From a virus, in the IMG/VR virus record IMGVR_UViG_3300042731_008183, positions 1-23,800 of that record: 23,800 nucleotides of DNA; one strand, written 5' to 3'. The position numbers and the translations under genes were made by a program. Below, piece after piece: positions 4,471 through 22,051 of the stretch; within the stretch, counting starts at the first letter, position 1, and each line of letters starts with the position of its first letter. Below the pieces are notes generated by a model, which was not told the origin of the DNA, did not search any database, and worked only from the letters and a program-made list of their open reading frames with translations.

Positions 4471-4670
4471 ACAAATACTGCCCGGGGTGCCTGCGCACGC
4501 AATGCTTTTTCCGGGTCGTGTTCTTCAAATCCCGAGGGCAGGTTGAGGACCAGCTCGTCTGCTCTCTTTGTAGTAGAGTATTGGTATGGATCGAGACAGC
4601 CTCCAACGACAGATCAAGCCCTTCTCCCCACAGAAGGATGATAAACCCCTCCGACTCTTCCAGCACCTGA
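4467..4670 (+). CDS. Zinc-ribbon-like small protein
   Basis: A 67-aa protein with two Cys-x2-Cys knuckles, Cys5-PG-Cys8 and Cys32-SL-Cys35, separated by beta-like strands (CFFRVVFFKSRG). This is the geometry of a zinc ribbon. The Ser-rich last 20 residues look disordered, and this is the part that overlaps the next gene by 85 bp in another frame. The start is ATGA-coupled to the gene before it. The clear knuckles support a real gene. The long overlap is unusual, and either the tail of this gene or the N-terminus of the next one is probably under weak constraint. Confidence 0.6.
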   Translation: MNKYCPGCLRTQCFFRVVFFKSRGQVEDQLVCSLCSRVLVWIETASNDRSSPSPHRRMINPSDSSST

Positions 4671-5635
4671 AGCCTTCGGAGTCGGACGTCCCTCCGTTGG
4701 ACACAATTTGTGACCAGAGAGCACGTAGCCCCCACGGTCTGCAGGGGAACGAACTCAGAACATTCTGGTCGGAGATCTTTCGGGCGGAGAATCTGACGCT
4801 GGCGGATTTGTATCCAGAGCGTCTGCAAGCGGCCTGGCGCATCGTCCGGGAGTGGTGCGCTTTGATTAGGATCATCCAATACCCCAACCAGGCCCTGCAC
4901 CAGGTCCTCACCGACCGGGAGCCCTCTCCCTGGACCTTCCGGAATTTCCGCCCCAAGTCGATCGGAGGCATTCGAGATGCCTACGTGCGCGGGTGTTATG
5001 GCGACGTCCCCGGCCTCCCTCTGTCGCCTCCCGTGCAGCCCAAGGTGGCCCGACACCACCCTGACTACGAGCCGAACCGAGACAAGCGCCTGGTGGTCTG
5101 GTGCAAAGTGGTTGCCCGGATTGGCGTCGGGAGACTCGGCTTGATGACGCGCCCGGACGGGCGTTATGGCATGGCTGGCCTCGTGGAACCCATCTATGCC
5201 CGGCTCGCCTTTCCCTCCCCGGGGGAGATCTACGCCTTCGAGGAGGCGATTGTCACGAAGGCCCTGGGCTGGTTGGTGGAGACCAGCCTCCAGGAGGCCG
5301 GGGAGCGCCTGACCGAGGTCTACGGGTTGCGGGCGCACGAGGTGCAGCAAGTTCTGGCGATGGCTCAGGATTGTGCGACTCGGCACACCGCCGTGTCGTC
5401 AGAGTCGGCGAAGGCTGTGCTCCTCCTGCGGCTGGAGAAGCTCCTGGGAGACGCTCAGAAGGCCCTGGCAGTCCGGGATGCAGTCTTCGTCGTTCGAGAG
5501 ATTGCGAAGCTCAGGGGCCTCGTAAAGGTCTCAGGAGAGAAAGCTGAGCAATCCGTGGACGAGATGGTCAAACTGGCTGCGGAACAGAGTGGCAGTAAAG
5601 AGCAGAAAAGGCTTCCCCCGCCTCCCAAATTGTGA
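4586..5635 (+). CDS. Probable terminase small subunit / DNA-binding packaging protein
   Basis: A 349-aa protein upstream of the large terminase. The C-terminal third carries a helix-turn-helix-like stretch (residues 234-259, SLQEAGERLTEVYGLRAHEV) followed by a helical pair (282-312, RLEKLLGDAQKALAVRDAV and VVREIAKLRGL). That pair resembles the oligomerisation region typical of small-terminase-like phage proteins. Small subunits recognise the packaging site and load the large subunit. The N-terminal two thirds are not recognised, and 349 aa is long for the family, so an extra domain is present. The ATG at 4586 has a poor ribosome binding site and lies inside the preceding gene; no later ATG is available until residue 187. 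The C-terminus is basic and Pro-rich (KRLPPPPKL). The assignment rests on position and these two motifs. Confidence 0.5.
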   Translation: MDRDSLQRQIKPFSPQKDDKPLRLFQHLKPSESDVPPLDTICDQRARSPHGLQGNELRTFWSEIFRAENLTLADLYPERLQAAWRIVREWCALIRIIQYPNQALHQVLTDREPSPWTFRNFRPKSIGGIRDAYVRGCYGDVPGLPLSPPVQPKVARHHPDYEPNRDKRLVVWCKVVARIGVGRLGLMTRPDGRYGMAGLVEPIYARLAFPSPGEIYAFEEAIVTKALGWLVETSLQEAGERLTEVYGLRAHEVQQVLAMAQDCATRHTAVSSESAKAVLLLRLEKLLGDAQKALAVRDAVFVVREIAKLRGLVKVSGEKAEQSVDEMVKLAAEQSGSKEQKRLPPPPKL

Positions 5636-6322: not shown

Positions 6323-6567
6323 CTGTTGAAAACAGGTTGGAGCGCATCGAGGACAGGATGACAGACTTGGAAGTGCACCAGGCCGAGCAGAAGGTTATGC
6401 TGGAGGATATTCATTCCTGTATCAAGCCCCAAGAGGGCCCTTCTTTTCCGGTGCGCCTGGATCGGGTGGAGCGACGGCAGGCCGGGTTCATCAAGGTTAT
6501 CTGGACGGTATTCATCACAGCTCTGACAGCAGTAGGCGGCTGGGTCGTCACCGCGCTCAAGGGATAA
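6319..6567 (+). CDS. Holin/XhlA-like protein: coiled coil plus C-terminal membrane helix
   Basis: An 82-aa protein. Residues 1-32 are a charged coiled coil (MTVENRLERIEDRMTDLEVH), and residues 42-54 are a second charged helix. Residues 57-79 are a single hydrophobic segment (FIKVIWTVFITALTAVGGWV), with only three residues behind it. This is the layout of the XhlA family of holin-associated membrane proteins and of several small phage holins. Holins permeabilise the inner membrane and time lysis. ATGA coupling with the preceding lipoprotein gene sets the start; an upstream ATG at 6274 would lie inside that gene. It is grouped with two lipoproteins in what looks like a lysis block, but no endolysin gene was recognised next to it. 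Confidence 0.6.
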   Translation: MTVENRLERIEDRMTDLEVHQAEQKVMLEDIHSCIKPQEGPSFPVRLDRVERRQAGFIKVIWTVFITALTAVGGWVVTALKG

Positions 6568-6568
6568 A

Positions 6569-7099
6569 ATGGACTGGAAATCCTTCGTCGATAGGCCGAT
6601 TGAGTTTTCCAAAAAGTGGTTGGGCCAGGAGCTGAATCTTCTACAGCAACGATGGATCACCGCGCTCACAAAAGCCCGAGGCAGGCAAGGCTTGATCTAC
6701 AAGCGCAAACATGCCTCTCAAATGGCTACTACGATGGTTTGCGCAGCTCTCTGGCGAGGTATCGTGCACGACCGGCATTCCCAGATCATCGTCTCCTCTC
6801 GCAGCGTAGCCTCGGCCTGGATGGCGATCATGGCTGTGCACTTGACAACAGCCTCTTCCTATGTTCGACACTTCATTAAGGGCACGGAAAAAGGATATGG
6901 CACTCAGGCCTCCGTGGTGATTTGGCACCCTGTTCGAGCACACCCGAACAATCTGGTGACCGGAGTGAAACCCTGTGATCTCTATATCGGAGATTTTGAT
7001 CGAATCCCGCGGGACCTTCTCGACAAAGTGTTTGAAGTCGATCTGGGAGGTCTCGTAGTTTTTCCAACGGTAAGTGGTAAATGGCCTCACTTCATGTAG
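6569..7099 (+). CDS. Terminase-ATPase-like protein lacking the Walker A lysine
   Basis: A 176-aa protein that by eye resembles the N-terminal ATPase part of the large terminase encoded right behind it. LLQQRWI (24-30) corresponds to PQQQELI of the terminase. SQMATT (50-55) lies where the terminase has the P-loop GPGKTT. SQIIVSSRS (71-79) matches TQVLVTAPS at the same distance, without a gap. DLYIGDFDRIP (137-147) occupies the Walker B place (MHIIFEEAS). The two Thr of the P-loop are kept, but the Lys is Ala53 and the glycines are missing, so ATP hydrolysis is unlikely. No nuclease domain is present. A ribosome binding site AAGGGA precedes the ATG, and the end overlaps the terminase start by 19 bp. 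It could be a regulatory pseudo-ATPase, a partner of the motor or a decaying duplication. Confidence 0.6.
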   Translation: MDWKSFVDRPIEFSKKWLGQELNLLQQRWITALTKARGRQGLIYKRKHASQMATTMVCAALWRGIVHDRHSQIIVSSRSVASAWMAIMAVHLTTASSYVRHFIKGTEKGYGTQASVVIWHPVRAHPNNLVTGVKPCDLYIGDFDRIPRDLLDKVFEVDLGGLVVFPTVSGKWPHFM

Positions 7100-8601
7100 A
7101 ATCTGATATATTGTTCGAGGCGACTGGCTGCACCTGGGACACTATCGACTGGGGAACCATGTATCGGCTGATTCGTGGGTCCATCTATTGGTTCTGCTAT
7201 TTCATGAATTTCCGCCCCACCCCTCAACAGCAAGAACTGATTGATGATATAGAAGACGGTGTGCTGCGGGAAGCGGTTAAATCCGGGCAGGGGCCTGGAA
7301 AGACCACCTGTTCCGCCATCATCGGGATGTGGTGGGGCATCCGGGTGATTGATACTCAGGTGCTTGTCACGGCCCCATCCATGAAGCTCTGCCGCGACGT
7401 CTACCTGAAGGAGTGCCGGCGCCGGCTGGTGAGGGCGCATCCATTTCTTCGGAAGTTCATCGAGGTCACCAAGTCTCGCGTCTACTTCGGCGGGCCCAAC
7501 CACCCGAACTGGCAGATCATCCCGGTTACGGCCAGCGCCACCGATGCGGTCGGCGCGCAAGGCCAGCATGATGACAACATGCACATCATCTTCGAGGAGG
7601 CCTCCGGTATCTCCCCCACCATTTGGGAGACGATGGAAGGCACGGCCTCGAACACCGAATCTGAATACACACCAGATGCAAACCAGTGTTGCATCCTTGC
7701 CATCGGGAACCCCAATGAGGTAGGCACGCCGTTCTACGACTGTTTCCATACGGAACGCGGGGACGGCAAGACTCATGGGTGGAAGTGCCTGACATTCAAT
7801 GCAGAGGAATCTCCGATCGTCTCGCAGGAGAATATCGAGCGCCTTGCCCGCAAGTATGGTCGAGATTCCAACATCTTCCGTGTGCGCGTGCTCGGGCAGT
7901 TTCCGAAGATGGCTGATTTCGGGATCATCTCGATGGATGACCTGGAGGCCGCCGCACGCATGCGGCCGGATGAGGCCCTTCTGAAATTGGATGGAAGGAA
8001 ACAGGTAGGTATCGACGTGGCCCGGCAGGGCGGTGACGAGATGGTCGTCATCTTCCGCCAGGGAGGCTGCATGCTCTTCATGGAGCGGTGGACTCGAGTG
8101 CCTGGGTTCGAGCCAGCAGACGCCATTCGCTGGGCGTTTGCCCAGCAATTGGAACTTGGCTGGGAGGACAAGGACGTGCTCTACGTGGTGGACGCCAGCG
8201 GCATGGGCCAGGGCGTCTTGCACCTATTCCGCGACGCGGGGAAGAGGTATCTCCCCTTCCACAACCACGCGGTCCCTTACAAGCCCAAGACCTACAAGAA
8301 CAAACTTACTGAAGGGTGGTTTGGTGTTGCGAAGTATCTCCGAGAGCAGAAGATCAGCATCCCGGACGACTCCCTCATGATGGCTCAACTCGCGGATCGT
8401 CAGTATAAAATGGATAACAAGGGGTTGATTCAAGTAGAGACGAAGGACGATTACAAAAAGCGCACGGAGCGCCGGTCTCCAGACCGCGGAGAGGCTTTTG
8501 TAATGGCGTTTTATGGCAAATCTCAGGCTTCTGGCAGGGTCTCGAGAAAGAAGACAAGATCCCCTCGCGTTGGTCCTGGAAAAGTGATATACTCAAGATG
8601 A
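7081..8601 (+). CDS. terL: Terminase large subunit (ATPase and nuclease)
   Basis: A 506-aa protein with the complete set of large-terminase motifs. The Q-motif-like PTPQQQELI is at 46-54, Walker A SGQGPGKTT at 68-76 (Lys74), Walker B MHIIFEEAS at 167-175 with the catalytic Glu, and the coupling motif AIGNP at 207-211. The C-terminal RNase H-like nuclease has its acidic residues in QVGIDVARQG (Asp312), YVVDASGMGQG (Asp371) and RSPDRGEAF (Asp468). The enzyme translocates genomic DNA into the prohead with ATP and cuts it at start and end of packaging, docked on the portal. Length and motif spacing are normal, so it should be active. It overlaps the pseudo-ATPase gene by 19 bp and the next gene by ATGA. 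The small subunit is probably the gene at 4586. Confidence 0.95.
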   Translation: MASLHVESDILFEATGCTWDTIDWGTMYRLIRGSIYWFCYFMNFRPTPQQQELIDDIEDGVLREAVKSGQGPGKTTCSAIIGMWWGIRVIDTQVLVTAPSMKLCRDVYLKECRRRLVRAHPFLRKFIEVTKSRVYFGGPNHPNWQIIPVTASATDAVGAQGQHDDNMHIIFEEASGISPTIWETMEGTASNTESEYTPDANQCCILAIGNPNEVGTPFYDCFHTERGDGKTHGWKCLTFNAEESPIVSQENIERLARKYGRDSNIFRVRVLGQFPKMADFGIISMDDLEAAARMRPDEALLKLDGRKQVGIDVARQGGDEMVVIFRQGGCMLFMERWTRVPGFEPADAIRWAFAQQLELGWEDKDVLYVVDASGMGQGVLHLFRDAGKRYLPFHNHAVPYKPKTYKNKLTEGWFGVAKYLREQKISIPDDSLMMAQLADRQYKMDNKGLIQVETKDDYKKRTERRSPDRGEAFVMAFYGKSQASGRVSRKKTRSPRVGPGKVIYSR

Positions 8602-8790: not shown

Positions 8791-10080
8791 ATGGCGAAGA
8801 AGGTAAAGAAGACTAAGGATAATTTGAAGGCGCAAGAGAGAAAGCGGTATCAGGAGTTGATGACGCAGGCGAAGAGCCTGCGCAAAGTCAATATGAGCCT
8901 GCGCCGGAAGTATCGTGAAGACGATACCTTCATGGAGGGCGTCCGCGAGACTTTGATCAAGGACCTGCTCCGGGTCTTCAATACGCCGGAGAATCCTTAC
9001 GCCGGTTGGGCAGCCTCACGCAAACGCTACCGCGAGCTGGGACACTATCCGGAGGTTATCGTCGCCGACTGCTTCGGCAACCACCAGGAGTTCCAGCGGG
9101 CCGCCGGCTTACACGATACCCGAGGCACGGCCAAGGTCAAAAATCTGACGGCCCGAATCTCGACCGAAAAGAAGATCGAGAAGTATGCGAATGATAGCAT
9201 CGTTCCATACTATGGCCTCTACGATACCCACTTCCAGGCAATGAACAACGTCGTGCGAGGTCTGGTGGTTGGTGATATTCATGGCCGTTACCGCGATCCC
9301 TTTGCCTGGGTCGTTTTCCTCGATCTGGTTCGTATGGTGAAGCCGAACTTCATCGTCCTCAACGGGGACGTGGTCGACTTCCCTAAGGTCTCCCGATATA
9401 CCAAGATGCCGGGCGCCTGCAACATTGGTCTTCAAGAGGAGATCGATTTCGTCCGAAAAGAAATATTCGGAAGCATTCGGAAGATCTACGACGGCCCGCT
9501 CGTCTGGCACCTCGGCAACCATGAGCAGCGCCTCGCCCGCTATTTGGCGGACACCGCGCCGGATCTGGCTGATCTCCGCTGTCTTCGGTATGATGAGTTG
9601 TTTGGGGTGAAGGACTATCAGGTGCAGCTCGTCTTCGGCGGGAAGTGGTTGGCCCCTTACCAGTCGGGCCGGTCGAAGAACATCCGGCGGACCCACAAGG
9701 TCTATTACGACTGTTTCTGCGTTTCACACGGAACCGCGATGGGTCCCAAGGCTGGGGAAGCCGAGATCAAATATTTTGGTATGGCAGGATGCTCTGGACA
9801 CACACACCGCCCCGGGATCTTCATGCAAGGCACCGAGGCAAATCCAGGCTTGACCTGGACGAACCCCGGCATGCTGGCGCACAAGGCGTGTGCCGTTGAC
9901 TACCGAGAGAGTCGGGTCAACGAGTGGGGCATGGGTATCGGTCTTTTCACCATTGAGCCGGCCAAGCGCCTGGTCATTCCGGAACTTTGCATCGTGCATG
10001 AGGAACTGGCCACGTTCGCCGGCAAGATTTATCGTCCCTCGGCGAGGGTGCAGAAGATGAGAGCAGAGTTGTGGATTTAA
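8791..10080 (+). CDS. Metallophosphoesterase with N-terminal DNA-binding-like region
   Basis: A 429-aa protein. Residues 1-60 are a basic helical part. Residues 69-107 contain a segment (WAASRKRYRELGHYPEVI ... CFGNHQEFQRAAGL) with the look of the helix-turn-helix repeat associated with homing endonucleases. Residues about 156-345 are a calcineurin-like phosphoesterase with all metal-binding blocks: GDIHG (161-165), NGDVVD (191-196), GNHE (242-245), SHG (312-314) and GHTHRPG (336-342). Such enzymes cleave phosphomono- or phosphodiesters with two metal ions. The DNA-binding-like front suggests a nucleic acid substrate, perhaps ends made during packaging, but the substrate cannot be read from the sequence. 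It sits between the terminase and the head protease, where many phages have the portal. Confidence 0.85.
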   Translation: MAKKVKKTKDNLKAQERKRYQELMTQAKSLRKVNMSLRRKYREDDTFMEGVRETLIKDLLRVFNTPENPYAGWAASRKRYRELGHYPEVIVADCFGNHQEFQRAAGLHDTRGTAKVKNLTARISTEKKIEKYANDSIVPYYGLYDTHFQAMNNVVRGLVVGDIHGRYRDPFAWVVFLDLVRMVKPNFIVLNGDVVDFPKVSRYTKMPGACNIGLQEEIDFVRKEIFGSIRKIYDGPLVWHLGNHEQRLARYLADTAPDLADLRCLRYDELFGVKDYQVQLVFGGKWLAPYQSGRSKNIRRTHKVYYDCFCVSHGTAMGPKAGEAEIKYFGMAGCSGHTHRPGIFMQGTEANPGLTWTNPGMLAHKACAVDYRESRVNEWGMGIGLFTIEPAKRLVIPELCIVHEELATFAGKIYRPSARVQKMRAELWI

Positions 10081-10196
10081 GAACAAATCTGAATCCCATT
10101 GCAATCAAAGTAATCGTCAGGCTTGTCTGGTTCTTCGCGATCTATCTACCCGTCTCGTTCGTCGTCTATCATGCTTGCATGTGGTGGGCGTCATGA
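10071..10196 (+). CDS. 41-aa membrane peptide between phosphoesterase and head protease
   Basis: A short frame starting at a GTG inside the end of the phosphoesterase gene and ending in a TGA that overlaps the ATG of the protease gene (ATGA). It encodes 41 residues with a polar N-terminus (DLRTNLNP) and one long aromatic membrane segment (about residues 10-34, with VRLVWFFAIYLPVSFVVY). The ribosome binding site is weak (GAGAG). Coupling to the next gene and full coverage of the otherwise empty gap between the two large genes support it; the GTG start and small size leave doubt. The function is unknown. Confidence 0.45.
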   Translation: MDLRTNLNPIAIKVIVRLVWFFAIYLPVSFVVYHACMWWAS

Positions 10197-10762
10197 GAAT
10201 CGAGATCAACGCAGTCACGGCAGCAATCGAGCACGGAGTAGATGTATCCGGCCGGCGTATCTTTCTCCACGGAGATGTTGACGAGGATACGATCGGCCGG
10301 GCGATCCGGGGCATCTATCTCCTTTCCGGCATCAGCGACCAGCCGATCACTCTCTTCGTCAGTTCCTATGGAGGGTCCCTGGATGACGCCTTTGCTCTTC
10401 ATGACGTGACACGAACCGTGGTCTGTCCGATTCACACGGTGGCCCTGGGCAAGTGCCAGTCTGCGGCCCCCCTTCTGGTGGCCTGCGGGCAAAAAGGGGA
10501 GCGGTGGTCAGGTGCGTTGACTTCTTTCATGCTTCACGACCTGCAGATCTCTCCACCCGAGGGGTCGCCGGTTCTGGTAGATTCTTGGGTAGAAGACGGG
10601 AACCGCGCCCGGAAGCAATATGTGGAATTGCTGGCGCAGTATACACGGAAGAGGGCCTCCCATTGGGAGCGGTTCTTCCGGAGCAAGTCCGATCGCTTTT
10701 TCACGGCCGATCAGGCTCAAGAGTGGGGCCTGATTGATCATATTTGGGATGAAAAAGTCTGA
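10193..10762 (+). CDS. ClpP-like serine protease, probable prohead protease
   Basis: A 189-aa protein with the crotonase/ClpP fold pattern. It has the strand RRIFLHGDVD, the oxyanion-loop SSYGGS (57-62), nucleophile Ser90 in LGKCQSAAPLL, His115 in SFMLHDLQ, and Asp167 in KSDRFFTADQAQEWGLIDHI, all in the order of the ClpP triad. In tailed phages such enzymes process scaffold and capsid proteins during prohead maturation. The ATG at 10193 is chosen over one at 10175 because it forms an ATGA junction with the small membrane frame before it and directly begins the conserved part. It is TGATG-coupled to the MuF-like gene. No scaffold or capsid gene follows in the window, so its substrate is encoded elsewhere. 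Confidence 0.85.
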   Translation: MRIEINAVTAAIEHGVDVSGRRIFLHGDVDEDTIGRAIRGIYLLSGISDQPITLFVSSYGGSLDDAFALHDVTRTVVCPIHTVALGKCQSAAPLLVACGQKGERWSGALTSFMLHDLQISPPEGSPVLVDSWVEDGNRARKQYVELLAQYTRKRASHWERFFRSKSDRFFTADQAQEWGLIDHIWDEKV

Positions 10763-18358: not shown

Positions 18359-20004
18359 GTGAGATCGACGTCCTTTTCTTCGAGGAGTTCAACGGTCTCG
18401 AGGTCGATCGAGCACGCATTCGTGGAATGCCACTTTTCTGTGAGGGAGTCGCTGCGATTCCGGGTTAGGCGAGCACGGCCGAATCTCTGCACATCCCCTG
18501 CAGTATAACCGGAAGGCAGGGCGCTGTCCAGTGTGATTTTCCACGTTCCCAGGACCTCCTCGATGGTCACCGCTTCACGGACGACGGAGACGCCATCAGA
18601 AAGGGTGATCCCGGCATAGTCAAACTCCCCGACGAAGGAGTCAAAATCACCCAGGGGGTCAATCACGAGGACCGTATCGCCAAGCTCGAAAGAGAGGACG
18701 TCCCAGACGTTTTCGTAGTCGATCAACCAGTAGGCCCGGGCTCGCCCCCGCCGGCTGTCGAAGAAGCTGATCAAATCCCAGGCTCGAGCGCGTTGCTCCA
18801 GGAAGGGCAATTTGTGGACCCGGCGCTGGCGGTCTCCTCGGGCGTCGACCTGTTCGCCCCGGCCGGAGGTCTGCATGGAGCCTTCACGGAGGAAACGCAC
18901 TTCGATCCCATTGGACCAGTCCGGCCCCACATCGAAGATAGGATACCCAAGATATTCGTAAAAGTTGCTGGGAACATCTGTCGCAACGGGAGGCAGAGCG
19001 GTCTTGCCATACACCTCGCGGAAGGACGCCTTGACGATGTAAGTGTGTTCTGTAGCCTCCTCGAATCCCATATCCAAGACTTCGTGCACCATGACCAGGG
19101 GAAGGATGGCGGTGCGACCGGCTGTGAAGGCGTTGGTGAAATTCGAGGTGAACCGGAGGCGGTTGCCGAGCTTTTCTCGAATCTGTTTGTATTCGACGGT
19201 GCCCACTGCACCTTCGGTTCCATACTCCACAACGGCCACCATGCCGCTCGGGAAGAACCGGCGCCGGGTCGTATCACAGTAGGCATAAGGCTGTCCAATG
19301 CCAGCATTTTGTGTGAGTTCAGTCGTGTCCATGTAGAGGGGAACGGCCATGCGTTCTTGGTTGTAGCGACGAAGCTCCACCAGGAAGGTGTCAACATTTT
19401 CCGCATCTCTGATGAGCCAGTTGACCTCGAGATCCCGGTAGGGCCGATCGAGGAGCTGCCGGCGCTCCTCCGCGATTGATGTGGCGGCTTTGGAGACGTC
19501 GGTGTTGTAGCTACTGGTCAGGGAGACGCCCTCGATCCAGTTGTGGTTGTAGTGGAGCAATGCAGTCGGGACCGTGAATCCAGACAGTGGAACGAATCGC
19601 CGGCCGAGGACCTCGAAAGCAAACCTGGGAAGTCCAAAGACGCCCGAGCCTGCGGCCAGATCGGCATCAGCCAGGACCTCCCCTCCCTGACTCGTCATTG
19701 CTACTTTAGTGGGAGATTTGGCCAGGACCTCGAAGGTGCCTCGGGCGACATTCAAGGCATCATTACTGGCAGGGGACAGTTCGTCGGCGTCAGCCAAGAC
19801 CTCACCTCCTTGATGGGTCAGACTGATGGTGGCAGGATACTTGGCCAGCACTTCGATCCCCCCTCTAACGACTTTGAGAGAGTCAGAAACAGTGGCCAGA
19901 TCGGCGTTGGCCAGAATCTCAGCCCCCTGGCAAGTTAGCCCCACAATGACTTGGGCTTTGGCCAATACCTCGAAGGCGTGCCGAGTAACCTGGTTGATAG
20001 CCAT
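18355..20004 (-). CDS. Distal-tail-like protein with N-terminal beta-repeats
   Basis: A 549-aa protein. Residues 6-140 consist of three similar units of about 40 residues and a partial fourth (AFEVLAK ... LTCQGAEILANAD; GIEVLAK ... LTHQGGEVLADAD; TFEVLAK ... MTSQGGEVLADAD; then AFEVLGRR). This is a form of the R-x-x-x-E-V-L motif found in strings in phage tail proteins. Behind it is a large beta-rich region, and residues about 410-450 (AWDLISFFDSRRGRARAYW) resemble the DUF2460 distal tail proteins (gp12 of the Rhodobacter GTA). The position just before the hub gene fits that role. The extra repeats would be surface-exposed. Composition turns GC-rich at the border with the hub gene. Start by TAATG overlap with the preceding gene. 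Confidence 0.6.
   Translation of the reverse strand: MAINQVTRHAFEVLAKAQVIVGLTCQGAEILANADLATVSDSLKVVRGGIEVLAKYPATISLTHQGGEVLADADELSPASNDALNVARGTFEVLAKSPTKVAMTSQGGEVLADADLAAGSGVFGLPRFAFEVLGRRFVPLSGFTVPTALLHYNHNWIEGVSLTSSYNTDVSKAATSIAEERRQLLDRPYRDLEVNWLIRDAENVDTFLVELRRYNQERMAVPLYMDTTELTQNAGIGQPYAYCDTTRRRFFPSGMVAVVEYGTEGAVGTVEYKQIREKLGNRLRFTSNFTNAFTAGRTAILPLVMVHEVLDMGFEEATEHTYIVKASFREVYGKTALPPVATDVPSNFYEYLGYPIFDVGPDWSNGIEVRFLREGSMQTSGRGEQVDARGDRQRRVHKLPFLEQRARAWDLISFFDSRRGRARAYWLIDYENVWDVLSFELGDTVLVIDPLGDFDSFVGEFDYAGITLSDGVSVVREAVTIEEVLGTWKITLDSALPSGYTAGDVQRFGRARLTRNRSDSLTEKWHSTNACSIDLETVELLEEKDVDLT
19606..19989 (-). repeat. Internal coding repeat, about 40-aa units (EVLA ... QGxE(I/V)LA(D/N)AD)
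   Basis: Three imperfect units of about 120 bp and a partial fourth, inside the gene at 18355-20004. Each unit encodes an EVLAK strand, a turn, a T-x-Q-G-x-E-(V/I)-L-A strand and the acidic (N/D)AD end. DNA copies such as gccaggacctcgaa and ccaagacctcacctcc show that the units are recognisably related at base level, so the amplification is fairly recent or kept by recombination. Confidence 0.8.
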
Positions 20005-21032
20005 TAAGACACCACCTCAATTCCGAATTTCGCTGCATTCACGAGGGCAACCGTCCAAGCACTGGCCAGGATGGGCTCCTGCTCCCAAACCTGAGAATGC
20101 CAGCCCCACACCGTGGTGGTCTTGGCCTCGTTGCTTCCATTGGATTGAGCTGTGGCAGCATTTTCATAGACCGCTCGAATTGTCCGCGTGCCTGATGATT
20201 CCATAGCACTGACTGATTCAAGGATGACGCCTTTAAGGGTTACCCCTGAAGGGATGCTGAGGTCTTCATACGTGTATATGTCCTCCTCGGTGGGAGTATA
20301 TGAAGATACCCGATTCGAGTCTTCTGGTGTGCCCGGAACATCGTCGACCAGGGCGTAGTTATCAACGCCAGTGGAGGGAGTCCAGGCACAAGCCGAGTCT
20401 CCTTCAGGCCGGATGGCCAGGACCTTCATCGGGCCGATAAAATCGTCCATGGCCCCGCCCTGGTCATCCATGAGCACGAAGTCTCCGAAGCGCATGGTGG
20501 CGCCGGCCGAATCGAAAACGATCTCGATCTGGTCGGCATTGTTGGAGCCTGTGTCGGCTGTGTTGACTCCGGTGTCGCTCCCGACGCTTACACCCTCGCG
20601 CTTGATCTCCCAGGCGCCGGTCGTCGTGTGGGCTGTGACCTGGAACTCATAGTAGGCAGGTTCTCGGGTAAAGAAGGGACCCACTGTGTCAAGGAGAGTT
20701 GATCCTCGTTTGACGAGGATGTTGAAAATGTTGCCATCTTCAGAGAAGTCGAAATGGAACGAGCACTGTTCGGCTCCTCCCCGCAAGAGAGTAATTTTGG
20801 AGCCGACTGATGCCGTTCTGGTAGCCCACCAGATGGCTGCGCCGAATGTCCACTGAGCTTGATCTGTAAAAGCTGGCGTTTTTAGAGTTGCATTGGTTGA
20901 AGCAATAGCTATACCAACATCTTTATATCCAGCAACAGCGGCGCTCAACGAACCTGAAGCTGTTGCCCATTTGCGCCCAAGCTGCACGGAGCCCCGGTTG
21001 ATTCCGAATCCTTCAGCAAATTTCAGACTCAT
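20004..21032 (-). CDS. Lectin-like minor tail protein, paralogue 2
   Basis: A 342-aa protein that is a clear paralogue of the one encoded just upstream (21029-22051). The N-terminal 200 residues have jelly-roll character (EGFGINRG, FSFHFDFSED-like strands, VKRGSTLLDTVGP, SDTGVNTADTGSNN, MRFGDFVLMDDQGG). The C-terminal part shares GVDNYALVDDVPGTPEDSN, AMESSGTRTIRAVY and the ending FGIEVVS. Such proteins occur between the tape measure and hub genes of many environmental phages and probably decorate the distal tail. Start by ATGA overlap, end by TAATG overlap. Function is inferred from fold and position. Confidence 0.7.
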   Translation of the reverse strand: MSLKFAEGFGINRGSVQLGRKWATASGSLSAAVAGYKDVGIAIASTNATLKTPAFTDQAQWTFGAAIWWATRTASVGSKITLLRGGAEQCSFHFDFSEDGNIFNILVKRGSTLLDTVGPFFTREPAYYEFQVTAHTTTGAWEIKREGVSVGSDTGVNTADTGSNNADQIEIVFDSAGATMRFGDFVLMDDQGGAMDDFIGPMKVLAIRPEGDSACAWTPSTGVDNYALVDDVPGTPEDSNRVSSYTPTEEDIYTYEDLSIPSGVTLKGVILESVSAMESSGTRTIRAVYENAATAQSNGSNEAKTTTVWGWHSQVWEQEPILASAWTVALVNAAKFGIEVVS

Positions 21033-22051
21033 GAGACCACCTCGAATCCAAATTCGGCAGAGTCAACATCGCCTATTGTCCAGAGGCTCGACGTGTCTGG
21101 GTCGACCTCAAAGATTTCTGTGAAATGCTTGAACAAGGTTGAGTTAATTGTCCAGGTGGATGAACCATTATAATTTGATCCTCCAGATCGACACTTGGCT
21201 CTCATTGTGCGAGAGCCTGAGGAATCCAGACCAATTGAGGCGTGAACCATTACCCCATAGACCTGCCCGGTGATGAAGGACAAGTTGTCGAAAGTGAGGA
21301 GGTCAATATGCCCCACAGTGTTGGACGAGACGTAATCTGAATCGTTGGGCGTGGCCGCGGGATCGTCCAGGACTGCGTAGTGATCCACCCCGGCGGACGG
21401 CGTGAAATTGGTAGTGGTGCCATCCCCGGTAGGGAGCCGACCTTCGATTACACAGTCGCCCAGGAAGTCGTTATTATTTGAACCCGATCCGTCGCAGAGG
21501 AAAAGGTCATCCAAATAGAGACCGGCATACCTGAGCTGGAAATCAATAATGTCGGCTCCCGCGGTTCCGCTTTCGGCAGTATTTACTCCAGTGTCGCTCA
21601 CGTCAGTGGACTCGTTGTGGCGTAGTTCGTAGGTGCCGGCTGCGGGATCAAGGAGGGCCTTGAACTCGAACCAGTGCCATTGTTCTGCCGAGTAAGCTGC
21701 CGAGGTGTCAAGAACGGTAGAGCCTCGCTTGACTTGTATCTTGAACGTGGTGCTGGTATCCTGCACGAATTGCAGACGCAGATTCTCCTCAGCTCCGCGA
21801 CGGAAGGCAATGTAGATGTCGCTCAGATCCTCGACCGAGGCGCCGGCGTGCTGGAAGCCGAAGCCGAGAATCCAAGTATTTTGGACTCCGAAGGATGCTG
21901 GTCTGAACTCAGTAGAGATGCTGGTCGAGAGGCATTTGCCGTGTAGTCGCCCAGTGAGAAAGTTGTTCAGGCCTGCAGCCTCAGCATACTTTCGGTCATA
22001 ATAGGTCCCGCTTTGATCGATTTCAAAGCCTTCAATCCAACGGAGGGCCAT
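21029..22051 (-). CDS. Lectin-like minor tail protein, paralogue 1
   Basis: A 340-aa protein with the same layout as the next gene: EGFEIDQSGTYYDRKYAEA at the start, VKRGSTVLDTSAAYS, VSDTGVNTAESGTAG, LYLDDLFLCDGSGS, then GVDHYAVLDDPAATPNDSD, GLDSSGSRTMRAKC and the ending FGFEVVS. The first half looks like a concanavalin A-type sandwich and the second half like a separate beta domain. The two copies arose by tandem duplication and have since diverged, with blocks of identity at the turns. A ribosome binding site AAAGGAAGTGAACC precedes the ATG. Likely a distal-tail or adhesin-type structural protein; no enzymatic motif is present. Confidence 0.7.
   Translation of the reverse strand: MALRWIEGFEIDQSGTYYDRKYAEAAGLNNFLTGRLHGKCLSTSISTEFRPASFGVQNTWILGFGFQHAGASVEDLSDIYIAFRRGAEENLRLQFVQDTSTTFKIQVKRGSTVLDTSAAYSAEQWHWFEFKALLDPAAGTYELRHNESTDVSDTGVNTAESGTAGADIIDFQLRYAGLYLDDLFLCDGSGSNNNDFLGDCVIEGRLPTGDGTTTNFTPSAGVDHYAVLDDPAATPNDSDYVSSNTVGHIDLLTFDNLSFITGQVYGVMVHASIGLDSSGSRTMRAKCRSGGSNYNGSSTWTINSTLFKHFTEIFEVDPDTSSLWTIGDVDSAEFGFEVVS

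Follow-up and report, generated by a model that had tools for sequence, protein, structure and literature searches.

What is encoded by a short open reading frame that is packed directly against, and overlaps, the complete terminase gene of a phage? The question is raised by P0001, which lies in a 23.8-kb viral contig of an uncultured phage (23,800 nt; hereinafter, the window) with the head genes on the plus strand and the tail genes on the minus strand. P0001 starts 1 base after the end of a small ORF, and the start of the gene for the terminase large subunit (terL) falls inside its 3′ end, in the following arrangement:

6559–6563, plus strand: AAGGG Shine-Dalgarno sequence, 5 nt upstream of the P0001 ATG, read from the sequence
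6569–7099, plus strand: P0001, an ATG-initiated ORF for a protein of 176 aa, with residues 1–92 TerL-like and the origin of residues 93–176 not recognized
7081–8601, plus strand: terL, complete, encoding the terminase large subunit of 506 aa (TerL, P0002; PHROG 5902, E = 6e-46; PHROG 2, E = 6.5e-34)

The two genes thus share 19 nt, and the preliminary description of this locus was correct in pointing to an intact frame, a good ribosome-binding site and an overlap with terL. Because long antisense ORFs occur in this GC-rich DNA, openness of a frame alone is insufficient as evidence of coding, even if a stop-free frame of the length of P0001 arose in only 49 of 20,000 shuffles that preserve codon position (0.25%) and in 5 of 20,000 base shuffles. 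The coding signal of the P0001 frame is 0.165 bits per codon, a value that 2 of the 115 wrong frames of the genes in the window reach (mean, −0.21), and the antisense frames of P0001 itself score −0.005 or lower. Given the combination of an open frame, codon usage like that of the other genes, a ribosome-binding site and tight packing, the ORF almost certainly is coding. Furthermore, at the divergence of P0001 from TerLs (13–24% identity in family alignments), a relic evolving neutrally should have accumulated about 5 stop codons, and P0001 has none; with its typical codon usage and good ribosome-binding site, it is indeed not an obvious wreck, as had been noted before.

Direct BLASTP comparison of P0001 with the neighbouring TerL yielded nothing significant. 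For more sensitive comparisons, 80 TerL relatives from viral contigs (≤33% identical to the TerL of the window) and several phage TerLs were assembled, and 14–15 members with mutual identity below 60% were used in the tests. The summed local score of P0001 against this TerL set exceeded those of all 600 shuffles, and the best alignments lay at the Walker A register for 7–8 of 14 TerLs, a count of 8 being reached by 2 of 600 shuffles. With whole TerLs as targets and real ORFs as a stricter null, P0001 ranked 1st of 104, by a narrow margin. When residues 1–92 were compared with the expected part of the N-terminal domain in 14 diverse TerLs, the z score was 4.3 in semi-global and 4.9 in local alignment, none of 1,000 shuffles scored as high, and P0001 reached a z of 4.45, whereas the highest value among 103 unrelated real ORFs was 2.96. 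On a single scale, the yardsticks are 7.95 for T4 gp17, 7.04 for T7 gp19, 3.25 for P0001, 1.0 for lambda gpA and −1.1 for P2 gpP. Judged by its sequence, the first half of P0001 behaves as a distant TerL, with a score inside the range of known distant TerLs. The correspondences can be listed along the gene as follows:

6596–6658, plus strand: residues 10–30, PIEFSKKWLGQELNLLQQRWI, matching the sequence DPVxFxxxxLGxxPxxWQ with which TerL ATPase domains open; Phe13 and Gln26 are kept
6710–6730, plus strand: residues 48–54, HASQMAT, which family alignments set against the Walker A loop HGVGK[ST]x
6752–6754, plus strand: Trp62, in the column of the Trp that is invariant in this TerL family (Trp84 in the TerL of the window)
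6779–6805, plus strand: residues 71–79, SQIIVSSRS, corresponding to the TerL strand TQVLVTAPS

The preliminary description had aligned P0001 with the ATPase part of the adjacent TerL, at identical spacing. This proposal holds for residues 1–92, which are in register and above the shuffles, but not for residues 93–176, which score like shuffles; likewise, the spacing is the same from SQMATT to SQIIV (21 and 21) but differs from QQRWI to SQMATT (24 versus 21). Tests that weigh conserved alignment columns (HMM, hhalign and PSSM, the whole-domain PSSM being negative) gave weak or negative results for P0001 against TerL. Weak profile results are to be expected if the conserved columns are those that were lost, and an unrelated protein would score alike. 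We consider, then, that residues 1–92 are of TerL origin with high probability, short of certainty and of proof.

Whichever register is chosen, Walker A is absent from P0001: residues 48–55 include neither Gly nor Lys. Because the family alignments anchor Trp62 to the invariant Trp of TerLs, the P-loop GHGVGK[ST] corresponds to Lys47-His-Ala-Ser-Gln-Met52-Ala53, with Met52 at the place of the Lys, Ala53 at that of the Ser/Thr and Thr54 next. Thus, the loss of Walker A reported earlier is real, although Ala53, then taken for the substitute of the lysine, is one residue off; nor do both Thr remain, as had been stated, given that Thr54-Thr55 are not the Walker A Thr. Lambda gpA, P2 gpP and Mu gp28 use a deviant Walker A. 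A deviant Walker A built on Lys47 of P0001 was considered and rejected, the loop glycine being missing and the similarity to the P2 and Mu proteins being out of register. In one related TerL (L051), the sequence around residue 90 is GHGVSKS in place of GHGVGKS, that is, the last P-loop glycine is replaced by serine.

The second half of P0001 displays no detectable similarity to TerLs, either with whole TerLs as targets (p = 0.53) or in the domain-restricted test (z = −0.3, p = 0.60). This result bears on one further feature:

6977–7000, plus strand: residues 137–144, DLYIGDFD, the Walker B of the preliminary description, without statistical support

DLYIGDFD and PTVSG are located near the places expected for Walker B and motif III, but the residues 93–176 that surround them do not rise above shuffles, and the Walker B assignment is unsupported. 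MAFFT sets VFEVDLGGLVVFPTVSGKWPHF against the motif III region of TerL, and a stretch of P0001 resembles, by eye, the motif II–III region of Mu gp28; neither likeness passes any test, and a Mu gp28 profile produced no signal against P0001.

The outcome of structure prediction, suggested at the outset, depended on the input. The AlphaFold2 model of the P0001 sequence alone has a pLDDT of 38 and no fold match, whereas a model built with 12 TerL rows reaches a pLDDT of 64 and a pTM of 0.62, is best in residues 1–100 and has a terminase-like fold, its best PDB matches including the ATPase domains of T4 gp17 (TM up to 0.73), HK97 TerL and P74-26 TerL; PDB 8dgc, the Avs3-terminase complex, is also among its fold matches. 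Because the input alignment was itself TerL, the argument is circular, and the guided fold indicates compatibility rather than independent proof. The same model is matched by the predicted fold of A0A2C9CX17 (BFVD), an uncharacterized stand-alone protein of Yersinia phage fHe-Yen9-04 that, with 185 aa, is similar in size to P0001 (TM 0.70/0.67; 12% identity).

Searches that used the entire protein as well as each of its halves, comprising family libraries, PDB sequences, tblastn against phages and plasmids, and pattern scans, detected no relatives of P0001 in viral contigs, prokaryote genomes, phages, plasmids, Pfam, PHROGs, NCBIfam or PDB; remote homologues may exist because pattern scans detect only close relatives. 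A lone phage match of the first half (E = 8) lies inside an unrelated ORF, read as a CAAX-type membrane protease, and was discarded. No relative of P0001 was encountered among the ORFs around the 80 collected TerL relatives. The phage itself is isolated: its TerL matches only relatives at ≤33% identity, and no closer phage emerged when a fragment of TerL or the upstream gene at 4586–5635 served as the query.

How, then, does P0001 relate to known terminase genes? With TerL (PHROG 5902/PHROG 2), it shares the DxPxxF...LG...Q start, the His of the GHG loop, the invariant Trp and the next strand, but it has no Walker A, no demonstrable Walker B or motif III and no nuclease domain, and comprises 176 aa versus approximately 470–500 aa. 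The C-terminal RNase-H-like nuclease domain is missing: P0001 ends at residue 176, and what follows is an independent ORF for a complete TerL, which carries GPGKTT and its family motifs. P0001 is not a TerL. The possibility that it represents one half of a split terminase was dismissed as well, given that P0002 has its own Walker A and nuclease region and is not just the missing part. In TerL genes that are split or contain an intein, for example those of Salmonella phage 38 (two annotated TerL features) and Klebsiella phage Magnus (an intein), the ATPase part forms a separate ORF, and P0001 resembles these in being a short TerL-ATPase-like ORF directly upstream of another TerL ORF; unlike in those cases, the TerL that follows P0001 is complete and looks active, and P0001 is without the catalytic loop. 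The place before terL would also fit a small terminase subunit (TerS), but the TerL-like first half does not, and P0001 has no TerS family match in Pfam, PHROGs or NCBIfam.

A candidate small terminase could be the 349-aa protein encoded at 4586–5635 (plus strand), without library match or relative, whose helical C-terminal half resembles, by inspection, TerS oligomerization helices. On the other side of terL, a metallophosphoesterase gene (8791–10080) is followed by a Clp-like head protease gene (10175–10762), both on the plus strand; no portal gene is recognizable within the window from family-library matches. Among the tail genes, two adjacent PHROG 2448 genes (20004–21032 and 21029–22051, minus strand), 33% identical over their full length, form a tandem paralogous pair. 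Positions 1–70, at the very end of the contig, consist of 5.8 exact copies of the 12-mer ATTCTTCCCGTG, possibly a sign that the assembly broke off at a longer array. Promoter and RNA-family scans of the window gave nothing informative.

Several explanations of P0001 have to be weighed. It could be a relic, a surviving 5′ portion of an earlier terL that was displaced by the present one or that resulted from partial duplication, and that is functionless or incidentally translated. The restriction of the TerL similarity to the first half, the loss of every catalytic loop residue and the lack of detected homologues are all compatible with such a history, as is the presence in the same genome of a second tandem pair of diverged paralogues, the PHROG 2448 genes. 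However, a neutral fragment this diverged should have acquired the several stop codons that P0001 does not contain, and the retention of typical codon usage, of a good ribosome-binding site and of the overlap with terL also argues against decay, so that we regard the relic as rather unlikely, if the most serious of the competitors. Somewhat less likely still, P0001 could be an ordinary orphan phage protein with no relationship to TerL, in which case the likeness seen in the first half would reflect chance or a general helix-strand pattern. Such an origin would accommodate the weak or negative profile tests, the narrow lead over real ORFs when whole TerLs are the targets, the absence of library matches and the single-sequence model without a known fold; it is at odds with the domain-restricted comparison, in which P0001 clearly surpassed both shuffles and unrelated ORFs, with the occurrence of the match at a register that had been predicted beforehand by the preliminary description, and with the position of P0001 directly upstream of terL.

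Two further possibilities appear highly improbable. HNH endonucleases often adjoin terminase genes, and a decayed or atypical one is hinted at by a weak match of residues 55–154 to PHROG 9443 (HNH; E of 0.05–0.07 against the library and 6.7e-4 for the contig alone), but this match is not significant across the library of 38,880 families, there is no Pfam HNH match and, by inspection, the signature of His-Asn-His with paired Cys is incomplete (the final residue of NNLVTGVKPCD is Asp rather than the His of HNH). Equally improbable is a decoy that occupies a host sensor of terminase without triggering it. Avs-type defence proteins bind the ATPase domain of TerL. The recovery of the Avs3-terminase complex (8dgc) recalls this interaction, and such a role is conceivable for a small protein resembling TerL that is produced ahead of terL; yet, P0001 lacks the loop surrounding the nucleotide, which probably contributes to what the sensor recognizes, and an early role would not favour a location in the late packaging operon.

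We tentatively favour a different explanation, to which we assign a probability of roughly 0.45: P0001 would be a maintained, nucleotide-blind derivative of the TerL N-terminal domain that is translated together with TerL and probably serves as its non-catalytic partner. Under this scenario, residues 1–92 would descend from the ATPase region at the N terminus of a TerL belonging to the same family as that of this phage, the ATP-binding loop would have been lost, and the second half would have either diverged beyond recognition or been replaced. A terL-overlapping ORF fits a protein made together with TerL, and translation of the two genes may be coupled. The product, predicted to be unable to bind ATP via a P-loop but to retain a TerL-like surface, might dock through this surface on TerL or on the portal. 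There it would act as an accessory subunit or a placeholder without catalytic activity and would tune how the packaging motor assembles or initiates. Binding of this kind is purely inferred, and the capping or regulating role at the motor envisaged in the preliminary description is a plausible hypothesis. T4 motors that contain inactive gp17 subunits remain able to package DNA, although they engage it less and pause more (PMC8589836), so that an inactive partner is mechanically possible and could tune the motor. The analogy is functional only: the T4 Q163A subunit is a nucleotide-deficient TerL-type protein that acts beside active ones, but it is an engineered point mutant of the full TerL (PMC8589836), whereas P0001 is a natural, separate gene. 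The open-access literature searched contains no description of a natural inactive TerL-derived partner, and the more far-reaching proposal, that P0001 is a dedicated, co-translated pseudo-ATPase paralogue of TerL that becomes part of the motor or caps it and determines the motor's stoichiometry, start or speed, strikes us as doubtful.

Overall, P0001 is a real gene, the first half of which is probably of TerL origin, and should be viewed as a lead, limited by the absence of relatives. The packaging motors of phages are regarded as rings in which all TerL subunits are identical. Should the proposal of a dedicated pseudo-ATPase subunit be true, this phage would possess a heteromeric packaging motor with a built-in inactive subunit; if P0001 is a mere remnant, it shows how far a TerL fragment drifts with its reading frame still open. 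Coordination among the subunits has so far been studied through engineered mutants mixed into T4 motors (PMC8589836), and a natural inactive partner derived from TerL would, if true, constitute a ready-made probe of this coordination.
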